Shown: positions 1-16,556 of the stretch, piece after piece
Numbering within the stretch: position 1 is the first letter of the stretch
How the letters are laid out: the number at the start of each line of letters is the position of its first letter
Source of the DNA: Candidatus Omnitrophota bacterium
Lineage (GTDB): Bacteria; Omnitrophota; Gorgyraeia; Duberdicusellales; 4484-171
Assembly (NCBI GenBank): GCA_030601015.1
Contig: JAUVUO010000005.1
Location: forward strand, 1 to 18,909
Length of the DNA stretch: 18,909 bases
Direction of reading: 5' to 3'
The notes under the pieces: generated by a model
The model's input: only the letters and a program-made list of their open reading frames with translations
Database searches by the model: none
Told to the model about the DNA's origin: nothing
Translations under genes and position numbers: made by a program

Positions 1-352
1 ATAAATTCAAAGTTCCGTTGGCATTAATCTCAAAATCGGTAAAAGGCTCACGGGCGGCCCAATCATGAGAAGGCTGGGCTGCGGTATGAATTATAAGCTC
101 AAAAGGATATTTTTTAAAAACTTCTTCGACTTTTGCCTTATCGCGTATATCTATATTTAAATGAGTATACTTATCTTTAAATATCTCCTGCAGCCGTTTT
201 TTGTTCTCATCGGTACTAGCCTCTTTACCAAAAAAGTAAGCCCGCATATTATTGTCGATGCCAACCACTTTAAATCCTTTTTCAATAAAGAATTCGACCG
301 CCTGAGAACCGATAAGCCCTGATGAACCAGTGATTAAAGCGTATTTAATCAT
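1..352 (-). CDS. NAD-dependent epimerase, CDP-paratose 2-epimerase-like (C-terminus cut by window edge)
   Basis: About 117 N-terminal residues of an extended short-chain dehydrogenase/reductase (SDR) are visible; the rest lies beyond position 1. The protein opens with a Rossmann NAD(P)-binding motif TGSSGLIG (residues 8-15) and an acidic end to the second strand (GIDNN). A later segment contains HTAAQPSHDWAA followed by DFEINANGTLNL. The AAQPSHDW stretch and the long insert after GIDNN (RAYFFGKEAS) are, from memory, typical of proteins annotated as CDP-paratose/CDP-tyvelose 2-epimerase-like; real substrates of this group are mostly untested. The ATG at 352-350 overlaps the TGA of the upstream ligase-like gene by 4 nt (ATGA), so translation is probably coupled. 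The catalytic YxxxK lies outside the window. SDR assignment is firm; the substrate is a guess. Confidence 0.85.
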   Translation of the reverse strand, partial: MIKYALITGSSGLIGSQAVEFFIEKGFKVVGIDNNMRAYFFGKEASTDENKKRLQEIFKDKYTHLNIDIRDKAKVEEVFKKYPFELIIHTAAQPSHDWAAREPFTDFEINANGTLNL

Positions 353-1632: not shown

Positions 1633-3479
1633 TCGTTGTATTGAAGATTTGGAATAAAAGAAGGGACGATGTCCCGTATTTTTCTTATAATTTCTCGTTC
1701 ATTCCTTATTTTTATTAATTTTTCTAATTCTTTAATCTGGCTTCTCAACTTTCGGGAATCAAAATCATTAGGCTGAGTAATATAAATTTTATTATGTTTA
1801 GTAACCTCATCTCGTTCAGCATCATGCAATGTTTGTTCACGTAATTTTTCACCCGGGCGCAAACCAATAAACTTTATAGATATATCTTTTTCCGGCTTAA
1901 GGCCGGAAAGAGCAATCAGATTTTTGGCAAGGTCAACTATTTTTATCTGCTCTCCCATATCTAAAATAAATATCTCCCCACCTTTTCCTATAGCACCGGC
2001 TTGTAAAACTAATCGCACAGCTTCATACACACTCATAAAATAACGCATTGCATCAGGATGAGTAACAGTAACAGGCCCTCCACCCTCTATCTGCTTCTTA
2101 AAAAGGGGAACAACGCTTCCATTTGAACCCAACACATTTCCAAAACGAACCGCCATAAATTTAGTCTTACTGTTTTTCGCCTTTGCCTGTAAAACCATCT
2201 CAACAATACGTTTAGTTGCTCCCATTACGCTTGTAGGATTAACCGCTTTATCCGTAGATATTAAAACAAAACGCTCAACATTATAATGTTCAGCGGCATA
2301 GATAAGGCTTCTACTGCCAATAGCATTATTCCTAAAAGCCACGGCTACATTTTTTTCCATCAAAGGTACATGTTTAAAGGCCGCGGCGTGAGAAATTATC
2401 TGGGGCCTTAATCTAGAAAAAGTATATTTAAGCAGGCTGATATCCTTTATATCCCCTATAATAGTCTTTAAAGAAAGGTTGGGATAATCAGCCTGCAATT
2501 CTCTTTCTAAAAAATATATATCATTTTCATTGTGGTCCCACAAAATTAATTTTTGAGGGAAAAAGCCGGCAATTTGTCTTGAAAGCTCTGAACCAATCGA
2601 GCCTCCAGCCCCGGTTATTAAAACAACTTTTCCTTCAGTATAACTTTTTATCTCTTCTTCATTGATATCCACTGTCTCACGCCCTAAAAGGTCTTCCGGC
2701 TGAACATCTCTTAATTTAATCTCTAAATCTCCGCTTAAAATCTTATACATTCCGGGTGCAATTTTAATCTTAATTCCTTTAATCTGACAATATCCCAAAA
2801 TGTCTCTAATAACTTTTCCTTCGGCGGAAGGAATCGCGATAATAATTCCCTCAACTCCATATTTATCTACTACTTCAGGGATCTTCTCTCTGTCGCCTAA
2901 AACCTTTACGCCCTGAATGTGTAAATTCCGCTTGCCAACACTATCATCAATAAATCCCACTATATTAAGATGCATATCAGGATTTCTCCGACATTCTTCC
3001 AAAACCAAATTCCCTGCTTCGCCGGCCCCCACAATAATAACTTTTTTATCTCGAAGCTTTAAAGAAAAACTCCTTTTCTCTCTGATCAGCCTTCCGCTAA
3101 ATTTAAACCCGCCAATTAATATTAAACACATTCCCCAATCTAAAACAAATATTGAACGCGGATAACCTACCACTCGATAGATAAAAGCAATAATCAAAAA
3201 GAAACCCACGCTGGCAACACTATTAGCTTTTATAATCTGCCAAAGATCAAACATGCTCACATATCTCAGCGAAGAATGGAATAAACCAAAGCAATAAAAT
3301 ACAACTATCTTTATAAGAATTAATATCGGCAATGTTTTTGAGATAAAAGACGTATATGCGGAGATAGAAAAGTCAAAACGCAGAAGAAAAGACAAGTAAT
3401 AAGAAAATGCTATTAGAACGCAGTAAAATCCAATTATAAAAGGAAGCCTAAATTTTCTAAAAACACGCAAAAATGTCAT
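1629..3479 (-). CDS. Membrane-anchored UDP-GlcNAc 4,6-dehydratase (WbpM/PglF/CapD family)
   Basis: The 616-aa length matches the large, membrane-anchored WbpM/PglF branch. About four hydrophobic helices (residues 12-125) precede a first Rossmann domain (VIIVGAGEAGN, 147-157) and then the catalytic SDR domain starting at VLITGAGGSIGSE (286-298). The active-site stretch STDKAVNPTSVMGATKR carries S408, M419 and K423, the altered Ser-Met-Lys triad known for WbpM-type enzymes instead of Ser-Tyr-Lys. The family converts UDP-GlcNAc to UDP-4-keto-6-deoxy-GlcNAc, the precursor of QuiNAc, FucNAc and bacillosamine-type sugars. The ATG at 3479 has AAGGG about 9 nt upstream and follows the only sizeable intergenic gap, where a promoter candidate is visible. 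Together with the nearby WbpV-like reductase (4230-5174) and phosphoglycosyl transferase (3670-4233) it suggests production and loading of a HexNAc initiating sugar. Confidence 0.95.
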   Translation of the reverse strand: MTFLRVFRKFRLPFIIGFYCVLIAFSYYLSFLLRFDFSISAYTSFISKTLPILILIKIVVFYCFGLFHSSLRYVSMFDLWQIIKANSVASVGFFLIIAFIYRVVGYPRSIFVLDWGMCLILIGGFKFSGRLIREKRSFSLKLRDKKVIIVGAGEAGNLVLEECRRNPDMHLNIVGFIDDSVGKRNLHIQGVKVLGDREKIPEVVDKYGVEGIIIAIPSAEGKVIRDILGYCQIKGIKIKIAPGMYKILSGDLEIKLRDVQPEDLLGRETVDINEEEIKSYTEGKVVLITGAGGSIGSELSRQIAGFFPQKLILWDHNENDIYFLERELQADYPNLSLKTIIGDIKDISLLKYTFSRLRPQIISHAAAFKHVPLMEKNVAVAFRNNAIGSRSLIYAAEHYNVERFVLISTDKAVNPTSVMGATKRIVEMVLQAKAKNSKTKFMAVRFGNVLGSNGSVVPLFKKQIEGGGPVTVTHPDAMRYFMSVYEAVRLVLQAGAIGKGGEIFILDMGEQIKIVDLAKNLIALSGLKPEKDISIKFIGLRPGEKLREQTLHDAERDEVTKHNKIYITQPNDFDSRKLRSQIKELEKLIKIRNEREIIRKIRDIVPSFIPNLQYNE

Positions 3480-3669: not shown

Positions 3670-4233
3670 TCAATGACTCACTCCCTCTCTCCTAATAACC
3701 TTCACAAATGTCCTAAACAGGATCTTAAGATCAAATAGAAACGACTTATTTTTCAAATAATATTCATCAAATTCTACCTTAACTGGAATGGGTAATTCAT
3801 CTCGTCCATTCACTTGTGCCCATCCAGTAATTCCCGGAATAATTTTATGTATTCCTTTGCTAGTTCTCGATTCAATCAAATCATCCTGGTTGTATAATGC
3901 GGGACGAGGGCCTACAAAACTTATATCTCCCTTGAAAATGCTATATAATTGCGGCAATTCATCCAAACTAAACTTACGCAAAAAAAAGCCAATCGGAGTA
4001 AGGTAAACTTTAGGATTTTTCATAAGATGAGTAGCAACAGTAGGAGTATCAATACGCATCGTTCGAAATTTAGGCATCCTAAATATGCTATTATTAATCC
4101 CGACTCTATCCGACCAATACAACACCGGCCCTTTCGAAGTCAGTTTTACCATCAATCCGACAACAAGAATCGGCACACTTAAAAAACACAATGTAATACT
4201 GGCCATAGCTAAATCAAAAATACGCTTGATCAT
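3670..4233 (-). CDS. Undecaprenyl-phosphate sugar phosphotransferase (PglC-type monotopic phosphoglycosyl transferase)
   Basis: The 187-aa size fits the minimal PglC-like members of the bacterial sugar transferase family. An N-terminal re-entrant hydrophobic helix (residues 4-30) is followed by KFRTM (55-59), the catalytic Asp-Glu dyad in SLDELPQL (D91, E92), SFVGPRPA (105-112) and the C-terminal PGITGWAQVNGRD (133-145). These enzymes transfer a sugar 1-phosphate from a UDP-sugar to undecaprenyl phosphate at the cytoplasmic face, the committed step of repeat-unit assembly. The gene follows a WbpV-like SDR with a 4-nt ATGA overlap and precedes the 4,6-dehydratase. I infer that the sugar loaded is QuiNAc, FucNAc or a related 6-deoxy-HexNAc. 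There is no obvious Shine-Dalgarno at ATG 4233, consistent with coupling. Confidence 0.95.
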   Translation of the reverse strand: MIKRIFDLAMASITLCFLSVPILVVGLMVKLTSKGPVLYWSDRVGINNSIFRMPKFRTMRIDTPTVATHLMKNPKVYLTPIGFFLRKFSLDELPQLYSIFKGDISFVGPRPALYNQDDLIESRTSKGIHKIIPGITGWAQVNGRDELPIPVKVEFDEYYLKNKSFLFDLKILFRTFVKVIRREGVSH

Positions 4234-5174
4234 GATTTAAAGTGTTTGACAGTTTCCTTAATACCTTCTTCAAGAATGAAGGGCGGTTCCCAGCCAAGTA
4301 AATTCCTGATTTTGTTGCTGTCAACAAGAAGAGTCCTTGTCAATTTTTCCGCTTCTTCGCCTTTGCCTGCAATTTTACATAACACTTTTAAGATACTGGG
4401 ATGCAAAGAAAACAAAATCGGCTTTTTATTCATCATAAAAGCGATCATCTTTATTAATTCCGGAGAAGAAACATCCTGTCCATCGCTTACCATAAAAGTT
4501 TTGCCTGCTGCCTTTGGATGAGCAACACAAGTAATAATAGCATCTACCAAGTTACCTAGATAAATAAAACTGCGCCGGTTATTGATACCCTTAAACGGTA
4601 AAGGCAAGCCAACAATTTTAATCAAATTCTTAAAATTAGCTTTCACATCCGGCCCATAAACCAAAGGAGGCCGTAAAATTACAGTCTGAAGTCCCGTCTC
4701 CGCGGCTATACAAGCTAATGCCTGTTCTGCCTCCATCTTACTGATACCATAAGCATCTTGAGGTGAAGGAAGGTCATTTTCGGTGTACGGCCGCAAGGCT
4801 CCTTCGCCATTTACCTTGACCGAACTAATAAAGACAAACCGTTTCACTCCGGCAAACACAGCCATACGTGCCAACCGCTCAGTCCCCAAAACATTAACTT
4901 TCCGGAAAGCATCAAGTGGATCAACCGTTGAATCATTCATGATATGGACACGTGCCGCAAGATGAACAACCGTATCTATCCCTGCAAAATCCTGATTGTG
5001 GAAATTACAATTTTCAACTAAATCTAAACATACGCTTTCAACACCGACCGGCAAGAGACTGATTTTAGATTCTTCCCGAACAAAAGCCTTAACCTTCCAA
5101 TTGTTTTCCAACATTTTAGCGCATAATGAACGTCCGATAAAACCAGCGGCACCAGTTATCAAAATCTTTTTCAT
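4230..5174 (-). CDS. NAD-dependent SDR, WbpV/WreQ-like 4-keto-6-deoxy-HexNAc reductase candidate
   Basis: This 314-aa extended SDR has the NAD(P)-binding motif TGAAGFIG (residues 7-14), HLAARVHIMND (71-81), a Ser pair in FISSVKVNGE (S117/S118) and the catalytic Y142-xxx-K146 in YGISK. HLAARVH.MN followed by FISSVKVNGE and PQD.YGISK is, in my recollection, the signature of the WbpV/WreQ group. That group reduces the product of WbpM-type dehydratases to UDP-QuiNAc (or the FucNAc counterpart) and is commonly misnamed UDP-glucose 4-epimerase. Its position directly upstream of the phosphoglycosyl transferase (ATGA overlap) and one gene from the dehydratase supports this. The base composition looks richer in G+C than the AT-rich genes just upstream. 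Family certain; product inferred. Confidence 0.93.
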   Translation of the reverse strand: MKKILITGAAGFIGRSLCAKMLENNWKVKAFVREESKISLLPVGVESVCLDLVENCNFHNQDFAGIDTVVHLAARVHIMNDSTVDPLDAFRKVNVLGTERLARMAVFAGVKRFVFISSVKVNGEGALRPYTENDLPSPQDAYGISKMEAEQALACIAAETGLQTVILRPPLVYGPDVKANFKNLIKIVGLPLPFKGINNRRSFIYLGNLVDAIITCVAHPKAAGKTFMVSDGQDVSSPELIKMIAFMMNKKPILFSLHPSILKVLCKIAGKGEEAEKLTRTLLVDSNKIRNLLGWEPPFILEEGIKETVKHFKS

Positions 5175-6316
5175 AAAACTAATTTACTTAATAAAATATC
5201 AGCTATTTTTTTTGAAGCCTTACCATCGCCATAAGGATTTTTTAGCGTAACCATTCGCTTATATACCTTTTTATCTGTCAGCAATTTTTTACATTCTTTA
5301 AAGATTTTTTTTTCATTTGTTCCAACAAGTTTCGCGGCACCGGCCTTCACTCCTTCAGGACGCTCTGTAATATCTCGCATTACAAGAATCGGCTTCCCGA
5401 AAGTTATAGCCTCTTCTTGTATCCCTCCCGAATCTGTTAAGATTAGATATGACTTCTTCATTAAATATACAAACGGAAGATACCCCAAAGGTTCTATTAA
5501 ATGAATATTTGACAATTTATTTTTATTTAATATATTTTTCACTGGGCCTTGGACATTAGGATTTAAATGAACCGGATATACAAAATCACATTTAGGAAAA
5601 GATAATGCAAGCCTCCTAATTGCATTACAAATACTCCTAAAACCCCTGCCGAAACTTTCTCGCCTATGGCCTGTAATTAAAACAATTTTTTTACTTTTTC
5701 CTTTTAGAAAATAAAAACTTTTCTCAAGCTTAATTTTCATACTAGACGATTTAATTACTTTCAAAACGTCACCTAAGGCATCTACCACGGTATTTCCTGT
5801 AACAAATATTTTGCTTTCTAAAATCCCTTCTTTAAGCAAGTTGTCTCTTGCCCATTTTGTCGGTGCAAAATTAAAATCAGCAATTTCCGTTACTAAACGC
5901 CTATTTATCTCTTCCGGAAATGGTGAATACTTATTATTTGTTCTTAATCCCGCTTCCACGTGCCCGATTGGAATTTTAAAATAAAATGCAGCCAAAGAAG
6001 TGACAAAAGCCGTAGTTGTATCTCCCTGAACTAAAATGACATCCGGTTTACTTTTAAGTATAACGGATTTTAATTGAGTTAAAGATCTCGCCGTAAGGCT
6101 AAAAAGATCTTGATTTTTCTTCATTATATTTAAATCATAATCAGGCTTGATATTGAAAATATTCAAAACTTGATCTAACATGTGTCTGTGCTGAGCTGTT
6201 ATACAAATCTGCGTCTTAAAATTAGAACGAGATTTTAATTGTTTAATAACCGGGGCCATCTTTATAGCCTCGGGCCGCGTTCCAAATACTACTAATATTT
6301 TTTTTCGCATACTCAT
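5171..6316 (-). CDS. wecB: UDP-N-acetylglucosamine 2-epimerase (non-hydrolysing)
   Basis: The 381-aa protein has the full motif set of the WecB/MnaA family: FGTRPEAIKMAPV (residues 11-23), QGDTTT (97-102), EAGLRT (121-126), FPEEINRR (133-140), ITGHRRE (214-220), and DSGGIQEE (295-302) followed by MRDITERPE. It interconverts UDP-GlcNAc and UDP-ManNAc in the cytoplasm. No WecC-type dehydrogenase is next to it, so the product is probably used as ManNAc, or is oxidised by an enzyme encoded elsewhere. The start is ATG 6316; an internal ATG two codons later is equally possible. The gene overlaps the downstream SDR by 4 nt and follows the radical SAM gene after 15 nt. A WbjD/Cap5G-like role in L-FucNAc synthesis is an alternative but less likely, because the small Cap5E partner is absent. 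Confidence 0.95.
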   Translation of the reverse strand: MSMRKKILVVFGTRPEAIKMAPVIKQLKSRSNFKTQICITAQHRHMLDQVLNIFNIKPDYDLNIMKKNQDLFSLTARSLTQLKSVILKSKPDVILVQGDTTTAFVTSLAAFYFKIPIGHVEAGLRTNNKYSPFPEEINRRLVTEIADFNFAPTKWARDNLLKEGILESKIFVTGNTVVDALGDVLKVIKSSSMKIKLEKSFYFLKGKSKKIVLITGHRRESFGRGFRSICNAIRRLALSFPKCDFVYPVHLNPNVQGPVKNILNKNKLSNIHLIEPLGYLPFVYLMKKSYLILTDSGGIQEEAITFGKPILVMRDITERPEGVKAGAAKLVGTNEKKIFKECKKLLTDKKVYKRMVTLKNPYGDGKASKKIADILLSKLVL

Positions 6317-6331
6317 CTTAACTATTTTAAA

Positions 6332-7783
6332 TTATCTCAAAAGTTTCATAGCAAATTTTCTCGCTATATTCCGTGATTTGCTTATAACACCCTTATCCGC
6401 TGACGGCTTCAAAAAGAATAATAGGGGCCGTTTAAAAAATAAAATGATTTTAAGTAATATTTTTTCAAAGAGAAAAGGAAATTTCATTTTTGAGAGAATT
6501 AATCGGGCATAAAAAAATATCTGCAATAAATTAAAATACTTTTTTATTTCTTTATGCGTTATGAAAGTTTCTTTTAAGCAAGGAGATTCTAAATATCCTG
6601 AGAATGATTCAATACCATCTAGTATCATTCCATATTCAACACATTTTTCGTAAAGTTTTGTTCCCGGATAAGGATAAAAATAAAAACATTTACCAAAATC
6701 TGGTTTTAATTCTAGATTCAAATCAAACGTTTCTTTTGCCATCTTAGATGTTTCAAAGGGTAATCCAAACATATTAAAAGAAAAACTCTTAATCTTTTCT
6801 TTTCTGGTTATCCGAAAAGCTTTTTTTATCTGCTCGTTAGAATATCTTCTATTTAAAATATTCTTTCTTAACCATTCATTTGCTGTTTCTATGCCGAAAT
6901 CAATAGATATGCATCCCGCATTTTTAAGGCATTTTACAACATCTTCATTAATTGTTTCAACTCTCGCATTGCATAAGAATGGTAGTCCTACATTTTCTTT
7001 ATAACTTTTACAGAAATCTGATAACCATTCTTTGTTTAGAGTAAAGGTATCGTCAGCTAAAGCTATTTTTCTAGTATCAGGATATAGCCCAAGGTTATTT
7101 TTAATTATGCTTATCGCCCTTTTTATTGATGGAAAACGAACATATTTGCTTTTATTCGGATATATTTCCCGAAAGGCATGATTGCAGCAATAATTACAGT
7201 TATAAGGACATCCTCTAGATAATATCATAGGAAAACAATTACCGTTCTTGCTTATAATTCCATAATAATCAAACAAAGTATAATCAGGCAAAAAGAAAGA
7301 ATCTATATCTTGCAAGGGAACAATGGTATTTTTTACTATTTCCTTATTTATTTTAAAGTAAAAACTGGGGATGTCCAAAAAATCCATTTTATTATCAAGC
7401 CTTTCACACAGCTCTTTCAAAGCATTCTCCCCTTCCCCTATGCATACAGCATCAAGCTCAGGAAATTCTTCAAAGGTCTTATCTTTTAATAATGAACAAT
7501 GCACTCCTCCTGCAATTAATAACTCCGCTTTTATATTAGCTTTATTCAGAAAACTCCTTACATATTTTCTCTGATTAGTTGTAAAAGATAAAGCTATTAT
7601 ATCAAACTTTTTATTACCCAAATGTTCAATCGCCCTGTTTAACTCTGGCTTATTAATTATATGGCTCAAAGATACACTATGGTTATTGCTTTTAAGCATA
7701 CCAAAAATATATGCCAAGCCATGATGAAGGCTTGGAAAATATCCGGTATTTACATCAAAATAGACAAAATGTATCTTTGCCAT
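6332..7783 (-). CDS. B12-binding-domain radical SAM enzyme (first of two)
   Basis: The 483-aa protein has an N-terminal cobalamin-binding-type Rossmann domain (about residues 1-135), recognised by HGLAYIFGMLKSNNH, FDIIALSFTT, LLIAGGVH and the GEGE-like IGEGEN. A radical SAM barrel follows with the cluster motif SRGCPYNCNYC (C192, C196, C199), then IALADDTF, a FGIETAN segment and FNMFGLPFET. The DxHxxG histidine motif of classic B12 domains is not visible, as in many members of this BchE-like class. Such enzymes perform C-methylations, cyclisations or other radical chemistry; the substrate here is unknown. Its place between a sugar SDR (sharing the A of TAATG) and wecB suggests action on a sugar, lipid carrier or peptide linked to the glycan. 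The region is very AT-rich. Confidence 0.92.
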   Translation of the reverse strand: MAKIHFVYFDVNTGYFPSLHHGLAYIFGMLKSNNHSVSLSHIINKPELNRAIEHLGNKKFDIIALSFTTNQRKYVRSFLNKANIKAELLIAGGVHCSLLKDKTFEEFPELDAVCIGEGENALKELCERLDNKMDFLDIPSFYFKINKEIVKNTIVPLQDIDSFFLPDYTLFDYYGIISKNGNCFPMILSRGCPYNCNYCCNHAFREIYPNKSKYVRFPSIKRAISIIKNNLGLYPDTRKIALADDTFTLNKEWLSDFCKSYKENVGLPFLCNARVETINEDVVKCLKNAGCISIDFGIETANEWLRKNILNRRYSNEQIKKAFRITRKEKIKSFSFNMFGLPFETSKMAKETFDLNLELKPDFGKCFYFYPYPGTKLYEKCVEYGMILDGIESFSGYLESPCLKETFITHKEIKKYFNLLQIFFYARLILSKMKFPFLFEKILLKIILFFKRPLLFFLKPSADKGVISKSRNIARKFAMKLLR

Positions 7784-8820
7784 TATTTATTCTTTTCTCT
7801 TACCGCTGAAGACATGCCAGGGGTAAAGGCGGCATCTTCCTCTATTGAATCCCAATTTTTCCCAAACCATACAATTGCTTCCTTAAGCCCTTTTTCAAAA
7901 GAGGTTTTTGGCTCATATCCGATAAGATTCTTTGCCTTTTTAACCGAGGCCAAAAGCCTACTTTTTGTATCCCATTTTCTCTTTGCTATAAATTTCATTC
8001 CGGCCGAATTTCCGGTTGCTTTATTAACCATATTCGCAAGATCAACAATTTTTGTTTCCCGGCCTGAAGCTAAATTAAATTCTTGGCCGATTGCTTCCTC
8101 AAAATGCCCTGCTCTTAGCAAGCCATCAACCAAATCTTCCACATAAGTAAAATCTCTTGTTGCCTCTCCTGAACCGGTAATAGGCAAAGTCATACCTTTC
8201 ATCGCCCAATATATGAAATTTGGAATAACATTCCTATATTGCCCGGGAATTTCGCCCGGACCATAAGAATTAAAAAAACGGGGCTTCACAACAGGCAAAT
8301 CATAATGGTGATAAAAGAAATTACAATACATCTCTCCAAGACTTTTAGTTATCTGGTACGGAGTGCTTAAATGCAAAGAGGTAAACTTTTCTGTTAATGG
8401 AAGCGGCGCATCTGCTCCATATATAGCACACCCCGAAGAAGCATAAACAAATCTTTTAATATTCGCAAGAGCAGAATACTCAAGCAGCTTAACTGTCCCT
8501 AATCCATTTACATGCAAATCTTTCTCAGGATAATCTACAGAGTTTTGATTAGCAAAAAAAGCTGCTAAATGAAAAATGTAATCGGGTTTTTCAAAAAAAA
8601 CTCTTTTTAAAACTATATCATCCGTTATATCTCCTTTAACAACCATTATATTTGACATAACCGGTATATTCCATTGATATGAAGAACTGAAATCATCAAG
8701 CACAATTACACATTTAGCGCCGGCATTTGCTATTACTCTTGTCAGATTACTACCAATAGCACCAGCACCGCCGGTAATTAAAACAATTTTATTTTTATAG
8801 TTATTCTTATATTGTTCCAT
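7783..8820 (-). CDS. NAD-dependent epimerase/dehydratase (extended SDR, GalE-like)
   Basis: This 345-aa SDR shows TGGAGAIG (residues 16-23), an acidic strand end VLDDFSS (40-46), FHLAAFFA (83-90), YASSGCAIYG (126-135) and the catalytic Y155-xxx-K159 in YQITK. PRFFNSYGPGE and a TRDFTYVEDLVDG segment later on are typical of nucleotide-sugar 4-epimerases and 4,6-dehydratase relatives. The exact reaction cannot be read from sequence. The tail after WFGKNWDS is a few residues longer than usual and its coding end meets the radical SAM start in a TAATG. The ATG at 8820 lies inside the 3' end of the preceding glycosyltransferase gene (14-nt overlap) and has a strong AGGAGG ahead of it. It is the third gene of the AT-rich block with the two radical SAM genes. 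Confidence 0.92.
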   Translation of the reverse strand: MEQYKNNYKNKIVLITGGAGAIGSNLTRVIANAGAKCVIVLDDFSSSYQWNIPVMSNIMVVKGDITDDIVLKRVFFEKPDYIFHLAAFFANQNSVDYPEKDLHVNGLGTVKLLEYSALANIKRFVYASSGCAIYGADAPLPLTEKFTSLHLSTPYQITKSLGEMYCNFFYHHYDLPVVKPRFFNSYGPGEIPGQYRNVIPNFIYWAMKGMTLPITGSGEATRDFTYVEDLVDGLLRAGHFEEAIGQEFNLASGRETKIVDLANMVNKATGNSAGMKFIAKRKWDTKSRLLASVKKAKNLIGYEPKTSFEKGLKEAIVWFGKNWDSIEEDAAFTPGMSSAVREKNK

Positions 8821-10039
8821 TTTTCCTCCTGTTTATTGTTTTAAAAATTTCCTCATATTGATCAACAGCACCTTTTTGTGAGAAATTTTCTTTCACAAAC
8901 AATGCGGCTTTTCTTCCCATTTCTTCTCTAAGTATATCTTCTTTCTCAAGAATGAATATTGCATTAATAACCCCTTCTATGTCTTCCGCCATAAAAGAAA
9001 AACCGCATCCTGCTTTCTTTATTATTTCATGGCCATCACTTTCTCTGTTTAAAACAGCTAAAACCGGTAACTTACTAGCCATATAACCCATAAGTTTTCC
9101 GGGAACCACCGGAGTTTTATTTTGGCCGCTTAAACACACTAACCCAACATCAACGCTTTTCAACAATAAGGCATACTCTTTTTTATTAATAAAAGAGTAA
9201 AAAGAAATGTTTGAAAGTTTTAGTGCTTTCGCTCTATTCATAAGTTTATTCTTTTCTGTCCCATCACCAACGAAAAGAAAATGAGCCATACTCCTTTTTT
9301 CAATCTTTTTCGCAATATCCATAATTACATCTAAGCCCTGGGCAGGGCCTAATATCCCAGCAAATAAAATAACAAATCTTGAATCAACATTATATTTTCT
9401 TCGAAACTCCCAGCTCTTAGCTGCTTTATCAAAGAAATCACAGTCGATCCAATTATGCACAACTTCAATTTTTTCAGGAAGCAATTGTTTGTTTTTTATT
9501 AAAAACCGCTTATTACCGTTAGAATGTACTGTAATCATATCAATCTTCTTATAAATCCATCTCTCAATCCGTTCAAAAAACCTAATCATTATTGAATTAT
9601 TAAGTATACCCAAATCGATAGCATTTTGAGGAAAGATATCTTGGACGTTCAATATGCTCTTGGCAGAAAAATGTTTTTGCAGCCATACGCAGGCAAGGCC
9701 TAAAGTAAGCGGTGGTGAATATGCTATTACTATGTCTATTTTTTTCGAAATATTCTTTTTTGCTGAATGACAAAAAATAAAAGGCAGCCTTAATAGCGAC
9801 AAGCCTCTAACTAAATAATTAATTTTAGTAAGAAACACGGTTTTTACTCTAATAACATCCACTCCATCTTCACAAGAAATAACTTTGTAGATTTTATTAG
9901 CTTGATTCTTCGGAGGAAAAGCTGTTATTACAGAAATTTCGTGGCCTCTCCTTTTTAACTCTTCCACGAATTCATGCATCAGATGCGATACTGAACGAAT
10001 TTCAGGAGGGTATGCAATAGTTAAAATCAGTAAACGCAT
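8807..10039 (-). CDS. Glycosyltransferase family 4 (WcaI/WbuB-like)
   Basis: The 410-aa protein has the GT-B layout. The N-terminal domain opens with LILTIAYPPE and carries LKRRGHEISVITAFPP (28-43); the region NVQDIFPQNAIDLG (131-144) is typical of the WcaI/WbuB subgroup. The C-terminal nucleotide-sugar domain shows ILFAGILGPAQGLDVI (224-239), FLFVGDGTEK (255-264) and VVPGKLMGYMASKLPVLA (311-328). Retaining GT4 enzymes of this type add a sugar (often an amino or 6-deoxy sugar) to the growing lipid-linked repeat unit at the cytoplasmic membrane face. Donor and acceptor are not determinable here. The ATG at 10039 is 2 nt after the stop of the upstream radical SAM gene, and the 3' end overlaps the next SDR by 14 nt. 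Confidence 0.93.
   Translation of the reverse strand: MRLLILTIAYPPEIRSVSHLMHEFVEELKRRGHEISVITAFPPKNQANKIYKVISCEDGVDVIRVKTVFLTKINYLVRGLSLLRLPFIFCHSAKKNISKKIDIVIAYSPPLTLGLACVWLQKHFSAKSILNVQDIFPQNAIDLGILNNSIMIRFFERIERWIYKKIDMITVHSNGNKRFLIKNKQLLPEKIEVVHNWIDCDFFDKAAKSWEFRRKYNVDSRFVILFAGILGPAQGLDVIMDIAKKIEKRSMAHFLFVGDGTEKNKLMNRAKALKLSNISFYSFINKKEYALLLKSVDVGLVCLSGQNKTPVVPGKLMGYMASKLPVLAVLNRESDGHEIIKKAGCGFSFMAEDIEGVINAIFILEKEDILREEMGRKAALFVKENFSQKGAVDQYEEIFKTINRRKNGTI
8825..8830 (-). promoter_or_regulatory. Strong Shine-Dalgarno for the SDR at 8820
   Basis: AGGAGG lies 4 nt before the ATG at 8820, a rather short spacing but full complementarity. It is embedded in the coding end of the upstream glycosyltransferase and supports the chosen start despite the 14-nt gene overlap. 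Confidence 0.7.
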
Positions 10040-10041
10040 AA

Positions 10042-11511
10042 TTATTGCTTCATATCCTTAAGAAAAAATATAGATCGCAACTTATCCACGATAGATTCAA
10101 TAATCAATTTAAGTATATACAAGAATGCTCCAGGTTTCTCCCAGTTTTGAATAAAGTAATTCTTTACTCTTGTCGGATTAACTATTTTATTACGAACATT
10201 ATTTATGAATTCATAAAAACACTTGTCGTCAACTTTGGTAAAATTTAAGTCTTCTACTTCTTCAATGCTTTCTCTATTAATTAAATTTCTATCTAAAAGG
10301 TCATCAAATAGCTTGCTCCCCGGCAAAGGGACAAACTCTCCAAACCCAATCCAATGAGGTTTAATTTCTTTCATGAAATTTCGTGTTTTATCTAAGTCTT
10401 CCATATCTTCTCCCGGAAGCCCGACTATCATATTTGCGTGAACCTGAATACCAGCCTCATGAAGTATTTCAGCTGCTTTATAATTTTGTGCAACAGTCGT
10501 TCCCTTATTTATTACATCTAAAGTTTTTTGCGAACCTGACTCAAATCCGACATCTACCCTTATACACCCCGCCTCTTTCATTAATTTTAATAAGTCTTTA
10601 TCCATTGAATTTGCTCTTAGCTGAGCATTCCAGCGGATCTTTTTATGCATATTATTTTTTATTAATTTTCTACATATACTTACTGCTCTATCTTTACTGA
10701 CATCAAATACATCATCAGCAAAATACAATCCCTCAATCTCATAATCAGCAATTAGTTTTTCTATTTCTTCAATAACTAAATCTATAGACTGAAACCTAAC
10801 ACCTCTACCCAAGGCTATATTCCCCGCACAAAAAGTACAATTATAAGGGCATCCTCTGGATGTAAATATTGTAGTTGCCTTTGAGTATATTCCATGCATA
10901 ACATGCGGGTTTGCCTTACTATAATATTGCATATCTACAAGATGCCTTGAGGGAAAACAAAAGTCATCAATGTTATTATGCGGTGCCCTTTTTTGATTAT
11001 TAGCAATATTGTTTCCGTCTCTATATGTGATTCCTGCAATACTCTCTATCTTAGCGCCTTTTGCTATCTCAAGCATTACCAACTCACCTTCGCCTCTACA
11101 GATAATATCGATTTCACTACAAATTTGTAAAGAATCTTCAGGTAAAGCTGAAACATGAGCTCCTCCTGCAATTATTGTTATTTTGCTATCTATTTTACGG
11201 ATAATTTTAACAATATTGCGTCTAACATCAAAAAAAGTTGGCGTTACTACTGAAATACCAACTATGTCCGGCTTAAATTTTCTTATTTCAGCTTCTGTTA
11301 TATTATCAACAACTAATTGATTAGAACGATTTTTCGTCATCAAAGAATTTCTATCTATGATTTTTACTTTTATTCCATTTTTTTCTAACATATTGGCAAT
11401 ATAACATAAGCCAAGCGGCGGATAAAATGACATTCCGACATTATTCTTCAACGACCTGCTTAACAAGCGTTGAAACGAAAAAAGAATTGGGTTTATTAAA
11501 CAAACTTTCAT
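10042..11511 (-). CDS. B12-binding-domain radical SAM enzyme (second of two)
   Basis: The 489-aa protein has an N-terminal B12-binding-type domain (MKVCLINPIL, YPPLGLCYIANMLEKNG at 30-46, PDIVGISVVTPTF at 81-93, IIAGGAHVSALPE at 113-125, GEGE at 140-143). A radical SAM barrel follows with TSRGCPYNCTFC (C221, C225, C228). Further landmarks are GLYFADDVF, RVDVGFESGSQKTL and a VGLPGED stretch. These are characteristic of the large cobalamin-dependent radical SAM class; the reaction is unknown. It differs clearly from the copy at 6332-7783 in sequence, so this is not a recent tandem duplication. It lies 6 nt downstream of a short SDR and 2 nt upstream of a GT4 gene, so it is co-transcribed with glycan genes. 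A role in modifying a sugar, lipid or peptide of the surface polymer is inference from context only. Confidence 0.92.
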   Translation of the reverse strand: MKVCLINPILFSFQRLLSRSLKNNVGMSFYPPLGLCYIANMLEKNGIKVKIIDRNSLMTKNRSNQLVVDNITEAEIRKFKPDIVGISVVTPTFFDVRRNIVKIIRKIDSKITIIAGGAHVSALPEDSLQICSEIDIICRGEGELVMLEIAKGAKIESIAGITYRDGNNIANNQKRAPHNNIDDFCFPSRHLVDMQYYSKANPHVMHGIYSKATTIFTSRGCPYNCTFCAGNIALGRGVRFQSIDLVIEEIEKLIADYEIEGLYFADDVFDVSKDRAVSICRKLIKNNMHKKIRWNAQLRANSMDKDLLKLMKEAGCIRVDVGFESGSQKTLDVINKGTTVAQNYKAAEILHEAGIQVHANMIVGLPGEDMEDLDKTRNFMKEIKPHWIGFGEFVPLPGSKLFDDLLDRNLINRESIEEVEDLNFTKVDDKCFYEFINNVRNKIVNPTRVKNYFIQNWEKPGAFLYILKLIIESIVDKLRSIFFLKDMKQ

Positions 11512-11517
11512 ATCAGC

Positions 11518-12393
11518 TCATAATATTTTATCAAGTGAGAAAAGACAATCATATAGACCGGATGATAGGCTAATCTCCGGTTGCCATTGAAAATCCCGCT
11601 TAACTTTTTCGATATTCGCATAACATTCGCCTACATCATTTTTGCGTGCTTTTCCCTCAACATGGATTCGAACCGAATTGCCTGCCAATTCATTGGCCAT
11701 CTGAGCAACTTCGATGTTTTTATAGGGTATACCGCCGCCAACATTGTAAATTTCAAGCCCTGAATAACCGGAATGAACTATAATGTCAACTAACCTTATA
11801 AAATCAGAAATATGAAGATAGTCTCGGCTGGGATCAGGGTCTTTGACTACAATTGTCTTATTATCCCGTATAGACGCTACAATAGAAGGAATAAGTTGAT
11901 TGTCATTCTGTTTTGGGCCATAAAAAGTAAATCCTCTAAGAATCATAACCGAAAAATCCATACATTGGTGAAGCTGACAACATATCTGTTCCCCAAGAAG
12001 CTTACTCCCCATATAGGGGTTAAGCACAAATGCCGGATGCTTTTCTTCTACAGGCAAATAATGAGGCTTTCCGTAAACATAAGAACTCATATATAAAAAT
12101 TTAGACTTTTTTGATATAGCAATATCGAGAGCAGCCATGGTCGAATGCATATTACGCCGATAAATATCCATCGGCGCTTGAAAAGATTCCTCAATAGATT
12201 TTGTCGCCCCGAAATGTAATACCCAATCAAGTATTTCCGGAATAATTATTGCCTCTTTTTCAGTATCCGGACAGACCAAACTATCCAACACAATTACATT
12301 GTCCCCATTGTTTTCAAAATGTTTGAAAATAGCCGATCCAACAAATCCGCTCGCACCAGTAAGGCCAATATTAAGTTTTTTTCTGTTTTTCAT
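11518..12393 (-). CDS. Short NAD-dependent epimerase/dehydratase (SDR)
   Basis: At 291 aa this SDR is shorter than its neighbours (314-345 aa). It has TGASGFVG (residues 12-19), an acidic VLDS, LHFGATKSIEES (59-70), YMSSYVYG (101-108) and catalytic Y127-xxx-K131 in YMGSK. Late landmarks are RGFTFYGPKQND, DPSRDYLHISDF and YNVGGG. The segment between the second strand and the HFGAT strand is clearly reduced: only about 20 residues separate VLDS from VLHFGAT. That stretch normally holds the D(I/L)xD strand that lines the adenine pocket. The active site is intact, so I treat it as a functional variant rather than a pseudogene. It follows the nucleotidyltransferase after 3 nt, suggesting that the two act on the same activated sugar. 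Confidence 0.88.
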   Translation of the reverse strand: MKNRKKLNIGLTGASGFVGSAIFKHFENNGDNVIVLDSLVCPDTEKEAIIIPEILDWVLHFGATKSIEESFQAPMDIYRRNMHSTMAALDIAISKKSKFLYMSSYVYGKPHYLPVEEKHPAFVLNPYMGSKLLGEQICCQLHQCMDFSVMILRGFTFYGPKQNDNQLIPSIVASIRDNKTIVVKDPDPSRDYLHISDFIRLVDIIVHSGYSGLEIYNVGGGIPYKNIEVAQMANELAGNSVRIHVEGKARKNDVGECYANIEKVKRDFQWQPEISLSSGLYDCLFSLDKIL

Positions 12394-12396
12394 AAG

Positions 12397-13116
12397 CTAC
12401 CGAAAATGAGTATAAAATTTCAAAAAGCCTTCTTCTGCTGCGTTTAACTCCTCAATCGTATTGAAAGTAATATCATGGCCTTCATGAGAATAAACATAGA
12501 GTTTATTAAGCTCCTTTAATATTTTAAAAAAGGCGATCAAGCCTTTTCCATCAGATAAATTTATTATCTCTTCGGAAATATATTCCATTGCCTTTTTTTC
12601 CATGATAAACGTACCTATATAATAATGAAGTACGGGTTTCTCGGCAAGAGTTTGTACCTGTTTGTCTTGGTTAGACGTCACCAAACCAAATGGACTTTGT
12701 ATCGGAGCAGTCACGATACTTAATAAGGCTTTTTTTTCGAGATGAAAATCTATTAAGTGTTGCAACTGGATGTTTGAAATGCTATCACCATATGTTACAA
12801 TAGCTCGATCTTCAAACAAAGCGCCTGCATCATAGATTCGGCGAAGCATTCCGGCATCTTCACCGGAATCAGAAAAATCAACGTTAAAATTCAAATCCAG
12901 CCCCCGGCAAGCATCAATAATCATATCCCCTTTATAACCGATTGCGATAATGAAATTACGGAAATCTTGGTTAATACTATGGCTTAACTTGCGATATAAA
13001 ATAGGTTTTCCACGCAGTTTTACCAAGGACTTTGGTATACTTTGTCCGAGCTCACCTAAGCGCGTCCCTCTGCCCCCGCATAAAATAATTGTTTTATATT
13101 GGCTTTTGGATTTCAT
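12397..13116 (-). CDS. NDP-sugar nucleotidyltransferase (RfbF/HddC-like family)
   Basis: This 239-aa protein is a single nucleotidyltransferase domain. LCGGRGTR (residues 12-19) is the nucleotide-binding loop, and PKSLVKLRGKPIL (28-40) carries the usual Lys contacts. AIGYKGDMI (58-66) follows, and VTYGDSISN (107-115) is in the metal-binding Asp position, resembling the YGD.(V/L)SD motif of CDP-glucose-type enzymes. The LAEKP stretch (about 150-158) is the second substrate motif. It would activate a sugar 1-phosphate with a nucleotide (CTP or GTP are both possible; the base cannot be assigned). The neighbouring SDRs at 11518-12393 and 14198-15211 probably use its product. ATG 13116 is 6 nt beyond the stop of the GT4 gene; no strong Shine-Dalgarno is visible. 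Confidence 0.9.
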   Translation of the reverse strand: MKSKSQYKTIILCGGRGTRLGELGQSIPKSLVKLRGKPILYRKLSHSINQDFRNFIIAIGYKGDMIIDACRGLDLNFNVDFSDSGEDAGMLRRIYDAGALFEDRAIVTYGDSISNIQLQHLIDFHLEKKALLSIVTAPIQSPFGLVTSNQDKQVQTLAEKPVLHYYIGTFIMEKKAMEYISEEIINLSDGKGLIAFFKILKELNKLYVYSHEGHDITFNTIEELNAAEEGFLKFYTHFR

Positions 13117-13122
13117 CGCGCT

Positions 13123-14196
13123 TTAATTTTTTAAGCCGGCTGTTTGTTTAAAGATATTAATAAAAATTTCGGCATTGTTTACCTGTTGAGTCTCCACATT
13201 ATGTTGAATACTCCTACTATTACCTAATGTTTCACGTGTAAGCCTGCACAAATCGCTAATATTTCTGTTGCGGAACAATATCGTTCCTTCAGGACGATCA
13301 CATACATCACTTGCTACAGAAGGCACCCGATAATAAAGCGCCTCTCTTAAGGTTAACGCGTCACCGTCTGTGTTCGTGGCACGAATGAAAAGATCAGCAT
13401 ATTTTAAAAATGGAACAAATGAAAAGTGATTGCCAATCACAAAACAAAAAAAGGAATCAAGGCCCTTTTCTCGAATATTAGCTTTAAGTTTTCTAAAATA
13501 GCTCTCGTTGGTGATCTCAGGAATAACCACGACAAATCCTGCCTGAGGTAAATCCATACTCAATTCTTGCGCCAATTGTATAAAAAGGTCTAAGCCATAA
13601 AGATCTTCATTCGAATAAAATAATGGCCCATAAGCATAAGTAAGAATTAGCGGCTTATGTTTTGTGCAGAAATCAATCATACTTCGTGAAACAGGCCTTT
13701 CAATAAAATCGCTATCCCGGGAGGGAATAAATGCCGGAATAATGGAAATTTTATTTTTTGAGATCCCATGACTAATCAATATCTTTTGAAGATCCTTATT
13801 AACTGTAATAATATGACTCGAAATACGAGCTGATGCCAAAATATAAAATAGCTTTAAGGAGTTTTTGTCGATCATCTCTTCCGGCGACCCGACAAATGTT
13901 ATCGTAAGCCGGATGCCGATAAGCTTTAAAAAAAAACAAAAGATTAACCGGCTGAAAGACACACTGGATATTAGGCAATGCGAAACATTGATCCCTTTTA
14001 GTTTCAGAAAACTTGTTAACAGCTTCAGAGGCTGCCGATGCAATGAAACAACACGCTTATTAGTTTTGTGCTGTCCTGAGTAATCCCAAACAACATACTT
14101 AATCCCCTCTTCTTCTATATATGGAATAAGCCTTTCTATGTGAGTTGTAACACCGCCTCGCGGAGGAGGCAAAGCCCCGATAATTATTAAGTTCAT
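13123..14196 (-). CDS. Glycosyltransferase family 4
   Basis: The protein is 357 aa with the start chosen here. It opens with NLIIIGALPPPRGGVTTHI, the donor-domain glycine-rich start common in GT4 enzymes. Near the C-terminus a segment reads TNTDGDALTLREALYYRVP and ends ASDVCDRPEG, which carries the acidic catalytic-loop residues and the donor-binding Glu of GT-B retaining enzymes. The central region is little conserved, so donor and acceptor are unknown. The longest ORF begins at a TTG (14223) inside the upstream SDR gene. I prefer ATG 14196, because it follows the SDR stop TAA by 1 nt, places the first strand right at the N-terminus, and matches the tight junction style of the operon. Residues before it would be non-conserved. 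Confidence 0.88.
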   Translation of the reverse strand: MNLIIIGALPPPRGGVTTHIERLIPYIEEEGIKYVVWDYSGQHKTNKRVVSLHRQPLKLLTSFLKLKGINVSHCLISSVSFSRLIFCFFLKLIGIRLTITFVGSPEEMIDKNSLKLFYILASARISSHIITVNKDLQKILISHGISKNKISIIPAFIPSRDSDFIERPVSRSMIDFCTKHKPLILTYAYGPLFYSNEDLYGLDLFIQLAQELSMDLPQAGFVVVIPEITNESYFRKLKANIREKGLDSFFCFVIGNHFSFVPFLKYADLFIRATNTDGDALTLREALYYRVPSVASDVCDRPEGTILFRNRNISDLCRLTRETLGNSRSIQHNVETQQVNNAEIFINIFKQTAGLKN

Positions 14197-14197
14197 T

Positions 14198-15211
14198 TTA
14201 CGCACGTTGGCTCTTACTGCCAATTCCTTTGCTCAAACAAACAAGCGGTGAATCTGCATTGTAATACACCGTTAGATAATTGCGAAACCATTCTATTGTA
14301 ATATCAAGCCCTTCTTCAAAACTAACTTTCGGTTTCCAGCCTAAGAGTTTTTGGGCTTTGCTTGCATCTGAACTCATTTTCCATATCTCATTCGGCCGGG
14401 TTGGAAGTCCTCCTATTCTAAGCTCTGATTTTGACTTGGTTTTTTTATGGATGAGGTTAGCAATATTCCGGATAGCGATATCTCTTCCGGTTCCTAAATT
14501 AATAATTTCACCTATCACCTTATCTGAAAGAGCAACGGATATCATACCTTCAGCAAGATCCGTAACAAAATTAAATTCGCGCGTCTGCTTGCCTTCTGTT
14601 GTCAAAACTACTTCTCCTCTTAAGCATTTGACAATCAGCTCCGGTATTACCGCTCTTGTACTTTGGTACGGGCCAAACGCATTAAAAGGCCTGATAACAA
14701 CAATAGGATTGTTTGACTGCCTCTGTTTCATAAGGCTGTATAATTCACCGGCATACTTACCTACAGAATATGGAGAATTTGGATGCGGGTACATCTCTTC
14801 GATGAATGGAACACAATCCTGTTGGCCGTATACTTCAGATGTAGATATATATATAAATCTTCCATAATCCTGCACCGTCTCAAGCAAATTAGCTGTTCCA
14901 TTATTATTCGTTTCTAACGCCTCACCCATATGAAGAAAACTATTCCCGACATGGTTATATGCAGCCAGATGAAATATAAAATCAAATTTCATGCTTCTGA
15001 GCGGCTTTAAAGATTCTATATTGCGAATGTCTGCTTCAATTATTTCAATCTTATCCCACACGGGGCTCAATCGCACATTATGCTCAATGCTATTATATCT
15101 GGCAATTATAGCTACTTGGGCTCCCTCCTGAATTAGAAGTTGAGTAAGCTGATGCCCAATAAAACCAGACGCACCTGTTATTAACACGTTTTTCTTATCC
15201 ATTTTACCCAT
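14198..15211 (-). CDS. NAD-dependent epimerase/4,6-dehydratase (extended SDR)
   Basis: This 337-aa SDR shows TGASGFIG (residues 12-19), EADIRN (59-64), FHLAAYNHVGNSF (80-92), YISTSEVYG (121-129) and the catalytic Y148-xxx-K152 in YSVGK, followed by RPFNAFGPYQS. The STSEVYG/PYSVGK pairing resembles GDP-mannose or dTDP-glucose 4,6-dehydratase relatives (STxEVYG, with T then D/E preceding), so a dehydratase or 4-epimerase role is plausible. Here the position after S-T is S-E, as in many extended SDRs with uncertain activity. A good GGAGGG 7 nt before ATG 15211 supports that start over the ATG three codons later. Together with the nucleotidyltransferase and the short SDR downstream it could form a pathway to one activated sugar; that is inference. 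Confidence 0.92.
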   Translation of the reverse strand: MGKMDKKNVLITGASGFIGHQLTQLLIQEGAQVAIIARYNSIEHNVRLSPVWDKIEIIEADIRNIESLKPLRSMKFDFIFHLAAYNHVGNSFLHMGEALETNNNGTANLLETVQDYGRFIYISTSEVYGQQDCVPFIEEMYPHPNSPYSVGKYAGELYSLMKQRQSNNPIVVIRPFNAFGPYQSTRAVIPELIVKCLRGEVVLTTEGKQTREFNFVTDLAEGMISVALSDKVIGEIINLGTGRDIAIRNIANLIHKKTKSKSELRIGGLPTRPNEIWKMSSDASKAQKLLGWKPKVSFEEGLDITIEWFRNYLTVYYNADSPLVCLSKGIGSKSQRA

Positions 15212-15214
15212 TAA

Positions 15215-16555
15215 TTAACCCTCCATAAATAAGTTCTTACGGTTACAAGTATGTATTTCATAAATCCCTATAAGTGCCCAAAAAATACAAGAAGTATAGG
15301 TTGCAGTAAAGTTATTCTGGAATAATGAAGAGACTATAAATAGCATAAAAATACTATACATCGCGCCTACGATTGAAACACCTTGACATCTCTCCTCAAA
15401 GAAATAAAAATCACTTTTAAGCTTTTTATATATTCGTCCAATCAATAACATAAATATAGAAAAAGAAACTATACCTGAAATGCCAAGTATCGAAAGATAC
15501 TGATTATGGGCTGCGTATGGCCATCCAAAGGCAATCCCTGTTAAAGGATTTTTATTAATTGTTTTGAATGTATTTAATTGCACTTTAATCCTTCCTGATG
15601 TACTCTTATCTATAACTTGTGTGTTATTCTTCAAATAATTGCCTATGTAACCTGTAGTGCTCATCAAACGAGTAAAGCTCGCATTTTGAGATAAAACACC
15701 GGGATAAAATATACCTACTGACAATGCGATAATTACCAGCCATATAAAGAAATTAAGGAATGTTTTTTCCTTAACTCTTTTAAACAGATAAAACGCAAAG
15801 AGAAAAATCAAAGCAATTAGGCTATTCCTTGAATGAAAACTAAGCCCATAAGCGTAAAGAATGACTGTGAATATTATAAGTACGTTTCTTTGAAAGGAAT
15901 ATCTTACCTTATTAATAGTTTCATGAAAAAAAATAACAAGAGTTAAAAATAAAATAGGATAATAATCATACGCCCCATATAAATGTATCTTCTGGTTGTC
16001 AATCATAAAAAAGTATGATGAAGCAAGTATGATCTTTCCAGAGAGCTGCCAGTTGAAATATAAAGAAACACAAAATTGTAATAGAAGCGAAGAAATAAGT
16101 ATGACCTTGACAACATTAAACTTTATATGTTTTGAAAAATTAAGCAGATAAAAATAAGCAAAAAAAGGCATCATTGCCTGACCTAAAAGAAATATCCTGA
16201 TTATTTTTATCTCCTTTAGCTGGCCATATAGCATTACGAGAAAACAAACACAAGAATATAGAATTATCAACTTTCCGAAATAACCTCCCTTTAATTTCGG
16301 TTTATTAAGCAACTTTAGGCCGAGTAATAGAACAAAGGCTGGAAAAAGCAAAATGCCTATATTTATAGTAAATCCTTGACGTATTCCCATAAGATAATTA
16401 GCAAATCTAATACCCTTAGAGCCAATATGAACAAAAATAGGAGCTGAAATTAAAAACAAATACACATAAAAAATACCTCCAAGGAAATTAGTTATTAAAT
16501 TATCCTTGCTAATTTTTACCTTAACCGCTAATTCCTGCGTAGTTCTGATCGGCAC
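15215..16555 (-). CDS. O-antigen polymerase-like membrane protein (Wzy candidate)
   Basis: The protein is 446 aa from the start chosen here and strongly hydrophobic, with about ten or more predicted membrane segments. Superfamily landmarks are FHSRNSLIAL (about residues 240-249, the counterpart of the SRG region) and NPLTGIAFGWPYAAHNQYLSI (about 336-356), the Wzy_C-type periplasmic loop with HNQYL. It probably polymerises undecaprenyl-linked repeats in the periplasm; a ligase role cannot be excluded. The longest reading starts at GTG 16570 inside the upstream GT2 gene. I prefer the GTG at 16555, because GGAGGG lies 7 nt ahead of it and it begins 1 nt after the GT2 stop. The second ligase/polymerase-like gene is at 349-1632, about 14 kb downstream. 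Confidence 0.88.
   Translation of the reverse strand: MPIRTTQELAVKVKISKDNLITNFLGGIFYVYLFLISAPIFVHIGSKGIRFANYLMGIRQGFTINIGILLFPAFVLLLGLKLLNKPKLKGGYFGKLIILYSCVCFLVMLYGQLKEIKIIRIFLLGQAMMPFFAYFYLLNFSKHIKFNVVKVILISSLLLQFCVSLYFNWQLSGKIILASSYFFMIDNQKIHLYGAYDYYPILFLTLVIFFHETINKVRYSFQRNVLIIFTVILYAYGLSFHSRNSLIALIFLFAFYLFKRVKEKTFLNFFIWLVIIALSVGIFYPGVLSQNASFTRLMSTTGYIGNYLKNNTQVIDKSTSGRIKVQLNTFKTINKNPLTGIAFGWPYAAHNQYLSILGISGIVSFSIFMLLIGRIYKKLKSDFYFFEERCQGVSIVGAMYSIFMLFIVSSLFQNNFTATYTSCIFWALIGIYEIHTCNRKNLFMEG
15219..15224 (-). promoter_or_regulatory. Shine-Dalgarno deciding the start of the SDR at 15211
   Basis: GGAGGG lies 7 nt before ATG 15211, inside the last codons of the polymerase gene. It favours this ATG over the one three codons further in. 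Confidence 0.7.
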
Positions 16556-16556
16556 T

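Follow-up and report, generated by a model that had tools for sequence, protein, structure and literature searches.

Two B12-type radical SAM genes beside a recurrent nucleotide-sugar cassette in a surface-polysaccharide operon of a Candidatus Omnitrophota bacterium

We analyzed an 18,909-nt stretch of a Candidatus Omnitrophota genome (contig JAUVUO010000005.1 of assembly GCA_030601015.1; hereafter "the window"), in which 17 genes, running from 18885 down to 349 and all called on the minus strand, make up a surface-polysaccharide operon. (The source is a 1.47-Mb draft genome in 241 contigs, with a completeness of 80.65%.) Two of these genes encode B12-binding radical S-adenosylmethionine (SAM) proteins, which we term rSAM1 and rSAM2, and between them lie a short-chain dehydrogenase/reductase (SDR) and a family 4 glycosyltransferase (GT4). 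We consider it fairly likely that rSAM1 and rSAM2 serve as optional tailoring enzymes with B12-type radical chemistry, C-methyltransferases being the likeliest kind, and that they act on an amino sugar or on its lipid-linked form. That they act in glycan tailoring at all is likely; C-methylation as their particular reaction is a tentative assignment.

Family placement of rSAM1 and rSAM2

We confirmed by domain content, cluster motif, and fold that both proteins belong to the B12-type radical SAM superfamily. The Pfam domain Radical_SAM matches rSAM1 with 72.6 bits and rSAM2 with 96.2 bits, and the B12-binding domain matches them with 39.3 and 79.4 bits; all four matches are above the curated cut-offs (29.5 bits for Radical_SAM and 32.1 bits for B12-binding). 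The cluster motif CxxxCxxC reads CPYNCNYC at residues 192-199 of rSAM1 and CPYNCTFC at residues 221-228 of rSAM2. It is kept in 38 of the 39 rows of an alignment of rSAM1 relatives (A1) and in all 36 rows of the corresponding rSAM2 alignment (A2), each hand-picked from 120 listed rows, with fragments and near copies dropped. (The motif is lost in A1 row P0007, which is 64% identical to rSAM1.) The AlphaFold models, with a mean predicted local distance difference test score (pLDDT) of 90.5 for rSAM1 and 90.9 for rSAM2, fit the solved structures of AprD4, MgmA, OxsB, TsrM, CysS, and TokK over most of the chain, and AprD4 ranks first by structure. The two proteins resemble the class B enzymes TokK, CysS, OxsB, TsrM, and MgmA in domain order, motif, and fold, but their identity to the six solved enzymes in structural alignments is 13-24%.

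Pfam, the motifs, and AlphaFold agree with a sequence-only reading of this DNA, which had picked out two B12-type radical SAM genes with CxxxCxxC clusters enclosing an SDR and a GT4. Its account of the junctions is also accurate: rSAM1 overlaps the SDR gene by 1 nt, the SDR and GT4 genes overlap by 14 nt, and a 2-nt gap separates GT4 from rSAM2. It rightly called the pair divergent, as rSAM1 and rSAM2 are 30% identical to each other. In our tree, the rSAM1 family (F1) is a clade with a support of 100, and the rSAM2 family (F2) has a support of 100 in the group table and 94 at the drawn fork. That F1 and F2 form clades is no surprise, because their rows had been picked as best matches. (Paralogues from the window's own genome were put in the tree by open reading frame length, and one of them, L004_own_3_419, with a branch length of 10, is probably no homologue.) The low identity and the separate clades rule out a recent duplication as the origin of the pair.

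Neither protein reaches the cut-off of any NCBIfam family listed (for rSAM2, among the best 25 of 40 matches). The top family for rSAM1 is BchE (TIGR02026, cut-off 481.35), with 121 bits; rSAM2 scores 178.9 bits against it. Of the examples that the sequence-only reading had named (GenK, Fom3, and BchE), the comparison covered BchE, and a kinship to it found no support. The top family for rSAM2 is the ring-contracting enzyme HpnJ (TIGR03471, cut-off 577.6), with 197.1 bits, against 85.9 bits for rSAM1. BchE and HpnJ are thus the best-scoring named families, yet the scores fall far short of the cut-offs, and the gene neighborhood is a different one. Against AprD4 (NF033070, cut-off 500), rSAM1 and rSAM2 score 79.2 and 94.1 bits. 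The model TIGR04295 (B12_rSAM_oligo, cut-off 400), which likewise joins B12 and radical SAM domains and whose name suggests oligosaccharide loci, gives 48.1 and 107.3 bits. Judged by the listed NCBIfam families and the six solved structures, F1 and F2 are subfamilies that have yet to be described within a known type of enzyme.

Wider searches returned distant relatives. A scan of genome contigs with a profile of the rSAM1 alignment matched on a general radical SAM motif and found relatives with a best-segment identity of at most 38% among the matches listed; the rSAM1 protein of Dissulfurispira thermophila (P0011, see below) was not among the matches listed. A scan of viral contigs found relatives at 25-36% identity, and plasmid searches found only relatives under 60% identity (under 33% among the matches listed).

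The cassette and its company in other genomes

The SDR beside rSAM1 matches PDB entry 6pmh (Mth375) with 430.7 bits, and it has the active-site motifs xFANQ, SGC, YQxTK, PGxYRN, and TRD[FW] at positions 88, 129, 155, 192, and 221, where its own letters are FFANQ, SGC, YQITK, PGQYRN, and TRDF. The Mth375 motif set is from Table 4 of PMC12820599, the available part of which states no substrate for Mth375; that part describes Bordetella WbmF as carrying out a 3,5-epimerization of UDP-2,3-diacetamido-ManA to the L-GalA form.

At E ≤ 1e-110, this SDR family occurs in 9 of the 384 genomes that represent the phylum (own genome included). We compared the neighborhoods, 14 to 20 kb each, of ten SDR copies: all nine from the phylum (the window and loci L143 and L258-L264) and L170 from D. 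thermophila, a member of the Nitrospirota. The SDR, the GT4, and a WecB-type 2-epimerase form a wider cassette, in which a WbmF/Mth375-type SDR is joined, mostly, by WecB, a GT4, and an ADH-GFO/IDH fusion protein. WecB (at least 40% identity) is present in eight copies (not in L261 or L263); it adjoins the SDR in seven of them and is one gene away in the window. The GT4 (at least 33% identity) is present in seven (the window, L170, L258, L259, L261, L262, and L263). The fusion gene is also present in seven (L143, L170, L258-L261, and L263, with a Pfam check in L143, L170, and L258) and was not found in the 14- to 20-kb stretches of the window, L262, and L264. It lies directly upstream of GT4 in five of the six other GT4 loci (L170, L258, L259, L261, and L263, but not L262). 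In the window, rSAM2 occupies this slot directly upstream of GT4, and rSAM1 is placed between the SDR and the 2-epimerase. (Loci L143 and L260, in which GT4 was not found, have a WecG-type glycosyltransferase, at L143:8578-9327 and L260:12188-12946.)

Six of the ten stretches include a B12-type radical SAM gene: there are two each in the window, L170, and L260, and L143, L259, and L264 also qualify. Every radical SAM gene counted in these six copies has a B12-binding domain above the cut-off. In the other four stretches (L258, L261, L262, and L263), B12-type radical SAM genes are absent. The presence of the SDR and the GT4 does not depend on the radical SAM enzymes: in these four copies, the cassette occurs with no such gene in the stretch. 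We therefore reject the view that the SDR-GT4 pair is found solely in one module with the radical SAM genes on its flanks. The proposal in the sequence-only reading of an rSAM-GT4-SDR-rSAM sub-module finds no support in the same copies, and outside the window, the two radical SAM families were seen together only as one shared contig size (44,019 bp).

The link of rSAM1 to the cassette does recur. In D. thermophila, rSAM1 (62% identity; the protein is the same as P0011 over its whole length), the ADH-GFO/IDH fusion, GT4 (46%), SDR (59%), and WecB (55%) are consecutive. In genome G003 (L143), the consecutive genes are SDR (70%), WecB (55%), an rSAM1-like gene (40%), and a sugar transferase. In genome G280 (L260), one B12-type radical SAM gene adjoins the SDR, and a second is beside a sugar transferase. 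So the recurrence with SDR and GT4 genes that had been anticipated is borne out for rSAM1, which lies beside SDR, GT4, and WecB in this member of another phylum. For rSAM2, the link to the SDR outside the window was seen solely as same-size contigs: for metagenome proteins, we used an identical length in bp of the longest contig as a proxy for a shared contig. This test covered the 120 proteins listed per search, out of totals of 1437, 2728, and 7714, and is blind to distance on long contigs. It gave four same-size contigs for rSAM2 and SDR, two for rSAM1 and SDR, and one for rSAM1 and rSAM2, all over 5 kb and with each pair from a shared source; the numbers expected over 5 kb, from jittered lengths, were 0.20, 0.17, and 0.14.

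B12-type radical SAM genes in general belong to the normal content of glycan loci in Omnitrophota, with scattered genes in one of the three genomes examined. The sequence-only reading had not counted such enzymes among the standard parts of O-antigen loci, but within this phylum such loci often include them. At E ≤ 0.001, the rSAM1 query matches 57 of 58 genomes (own included), with up to 25 matches per genome, and the rSAM2 query matches 58 of 58, with up to 27; at most 27 candidates were scored per genome, and radical SAM proteins of other types may be among those counted. Of 17 best-match loci compared to the window by BLAST, 14 have a glycosyltransferase, SDR, sugar-transferase, WecB-like, or Wzy-like gene within the stretch; the stretches L142, L145, and L149 showed no such gene. 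We also examined three relatives of our choosing. In G157, all 10 B12-binding matches fall in a 143-kb span of a single contig (a glycan island at 501-645 kb of C5), and in G079, a 105-kb span takes in 15 of the 17 (a glycan island at 79-185 kb of C6). According to local profiles, these two islands hold 23 B12-type radical SAM genes, 24 family 2 glycosyltransferase (GT2) genes, and 10 GT4 genes among 211 open reading frames, as compared to 2, 1, and 0 among 107 open reading frames in six 20-kb control stretches, also of our choosing; the radical SAM profile may catch other radical SAM proteins.

Two side observations concern such loci. First, plasmid pDCAR1 of Solidesulfovibrio carbinolicus has four genes annotated as "radical SAM protein," three of them with a B12-binding domain, amid pseudaminic-acid-type (nonulosonic-acid) genes and one glycosyltransferase gene. 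(The other four regions examined from the plasmid searches were one gene amid transposases, one unrelated setting, and two BchE references.) Second, 40 kb beside the G157 island (L273 and L274, G157:C5:535001-575000) contain only 3 open reading frames of at least 100 amino acids, a scarcity that points to at least one very long reading frame. Genes of giant size occur in Omnitrophota.

Proposed chemistry and competing explanations

The commonest reaction of B12-type radical SAM enzymes is cobamide-dependent C-methylation. We propose that WecB would invert C2 of a UDP-HexNAc-type sugar, that the SDR would epimerize the product further, and that the GT4 would attach the resulting amino sugar to the glycan. 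In each radical SAM enzyme, the [4Fe-4S] cluster is predicted to bind SAM and the N-terminal domain to bind a cobamide. A 5'-deoxyadenosyl radical would then abstract hydrogen from a sugar carbon that is not activated, and most probably methylcobalamin would donate a methyl group to that carbon. The acceptor would be either the nucleotide sugar or the lipid-linked glycan during its growth. The two radical SAM genes may have been inserted into the operon separately. Cobamide assembly is plausible because CobS, a cobamide-assembly gene, is present in the window's genome (and in 4 of 11 other genomes tested).

The C-terminal stretches hint at membrane attachment. They are basic in all 39 rows for rSAM1 (median net charge +11) and in all 36 rows for rSAM2 (median +7.5), and the most hydrophobic 18 residues have a mean of 0.54 for rSAM1 and 0.34 for rSAM2, as compared to 0.20 for the SDR control. 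A basic and partly hydrophobic C-terminus of rSAM1 would suit a membrane-bound, lipid-linked substrate.

Several observations weigh against tailoring by rSAM1 and rSAM2 or against parts of its support. The SDR control likewise has a basic tail (median +6), with a similar hydrophobic moment (0.54 vs. 0.58 and 0.59). The four cassette copies that lack radical SAM genes count here too, and where such genes are near the cassette, they fall in several subfamilies of the tree. In genome G131, the rSAM1 orthologue (L142, 55% identity) is on a 3.5-kb contig that ends downstream of it, and its upstream neighbor encodes a type II/IV secretion ATPase; in G002, the 7 B12-binding matches are scattered. At E ≤ 1e-110, the count for rSAM2 in a sample of the phylum of L119 was 0 of 395, in a search without a positive control. 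As for the contig sizes, the numbers expected over all sizes are 0.97, 0.84, and 0.84 vs. the observed 4, 2, and 1, and among 2000 trials chance alone gave up to 4, 3, and 3 matches over 5 kb; only the rSAM2-SDR excess is strong, and the proxy test is weak for the other pairs. Finally, the reaction is a guess because there is no close characterized relative.

One alternative is HpnJ-like chemistry, with rearrangement (such as ring contraction) or oxidation in place of methylation; the target would be the carrier lipid or an amino sugar linked to lipid. The ranking of HpnJ and BchE as top families and the basic C-terminal stretches point in this direction. In the available part of PMC12583986, the radical SAM protein HpnJ is described as following HpnI and HpnK in a pathway, with bacteriohopanetetrol-linked glucosamine as its substrate. 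This explanation is unlikely, as the scores are far under the cut-offs and the scanned genes of the window are sugar genes, none of which reaches the cut-off of a hopanoid family.

Alternatively, the radical SAM genes could be passengers that serve other glycan or secondary-metabolite steps and are present through reshuffling of the island. This would fit the cassette copies without radical SAM genes, the several subfamilies nearby, and the rare and patchy occurrence of rSAM1 (2 of 384 genomes of the phylum, own included). But rSAM1 has been kept with SDR, GT4, and WecB in another phylum, with the four proteins at 46-62% identity, and relatives of rSAM2 share contig sizes with the SDR above expectation, so we consider this improbable. 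Equally improbable is a pair like AprD4 and its reductase AprD3, also a radical SAM enzyme beside an SDR, in which rSAM1 would dehydrate a vicinal diol of a sugar (dehydration being the AprD4 reaction in the available part of PMC5461906) and the adjoining SDR would reduce the product to a deoxysugar: AprD4 is nearest by structure, but its model score is far under the cut-off and the window SDR is of the WbmF/Mth375 type, which elsewhere occurs without a nearby radical SAM gene.

If rSAM1 and rSAM2 are indeed optional glycan-tailoring enzymes, then B12-type radical chemistry would be routine in the making of surface glycans in Omnitrophota and in some bacteria from other phyla, and such chemistry would reach beyond antibiotic, pigment, and lipid pathways. 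We can also imagine, although it is doubtful, that F1 and F2 are glycan-dedicated families that use cobamide to add a methyl branch to (or rebuild an unactivated carbon of) a WecB-WbmF amino sugar, so that bacteria from several phyla, often uncultured ones, would display unrecorded C-branched surface amino sugars. In any case, rSAM1, SDR, GT4, and WecB are a concrete, testable gene set. D. thermophila carries this set and is a cultured species, and therefore its polysaccharide is open to analysis. The available parts of PMC12583986, PMC12820599, PMC5461906, PMC9902471, and PMC9723712 contain no description of B12-type radical SAM genes at the O-antigen loci of bacteria, with most subscription journals outside the scope of this search. 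In its available part, PMC9723712 mentions 15 radical SAM enzymes in one huge virus and, in a separate context, O-antigen genes of viruses.

The rest of the operon

The features of the window are collected in Table 1. Among the cassette proteins, the SDR matches PF01370 and the GT4 matches PF13439 and PF00534, all above the cut-offs; the GT4 scores 173.6 bits against NF007640, short of the cut-off of 276. The 2-epimerase scores 506.1 bits against TIGR00236, above the cut-off of 210.15.

Table 1. Features of the surface-polysaccharide operon in the window
Feature	Coordinates	Strand	Length	Basis
rSAM1: B12-binding + radical SAM protein, family F1	6332-7783	-	483 aa	Pfam, AlphaFold, tree
WbmF/Mth375-type nucleotide-sugar SDR	7783-8820	-	345 aa	PDB 6pmh match and motifs
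GT4 glycosyltransferase	8807-10039	-	410 aa	Pfam; nearest NCBIfam model is the WcaI family (PRK10307)
rSAM2: B12-binding + radical SAM protein, family F2	10042-11511	-	489 aa	Pfam, AlphaFold, tree
WecB-type non-hydrolysing UDP-GlcNAc 2-epimerase	5171-6316	-	381 aa	TIGR00236
SDR	4230-5174	-		Pfam
Small sugar-phosphate transferase	3670-4233	-		Nearest TIGR03025, 220.5 bits, below cut-off 295.55
WbpM/CapD-type dehydratase	1629-3479	-		Polysacc_synt_2, 377.3 bits
O-antigen-ligase/Wzy-type membrane protein	349-1632	-		Wzy_C, 94.2 bits
Upstream half of operon: three SDRs, nucleoside triphosphate (NTP) transferase, GT4-like, Wzy-like, GT2, dTDP-sugar-isomerase-like cupin	11518-18885	-		

The window encodes two Wzy_C membrane proteins. 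In the upstream half, the GT4-like protein (13123-14223) scores below the Pfam cut-offs. A second nucleotide-sugar unit lies at 11518-15211 and consists of a LegB-like SDR (218.8 bits vs. a cut-off of 475), an NTP transferase (nearest to glucose-1-phosphate cytidylyltransferase, with 81.6 bits vs. a cut-off of 300.25), and another SDR.

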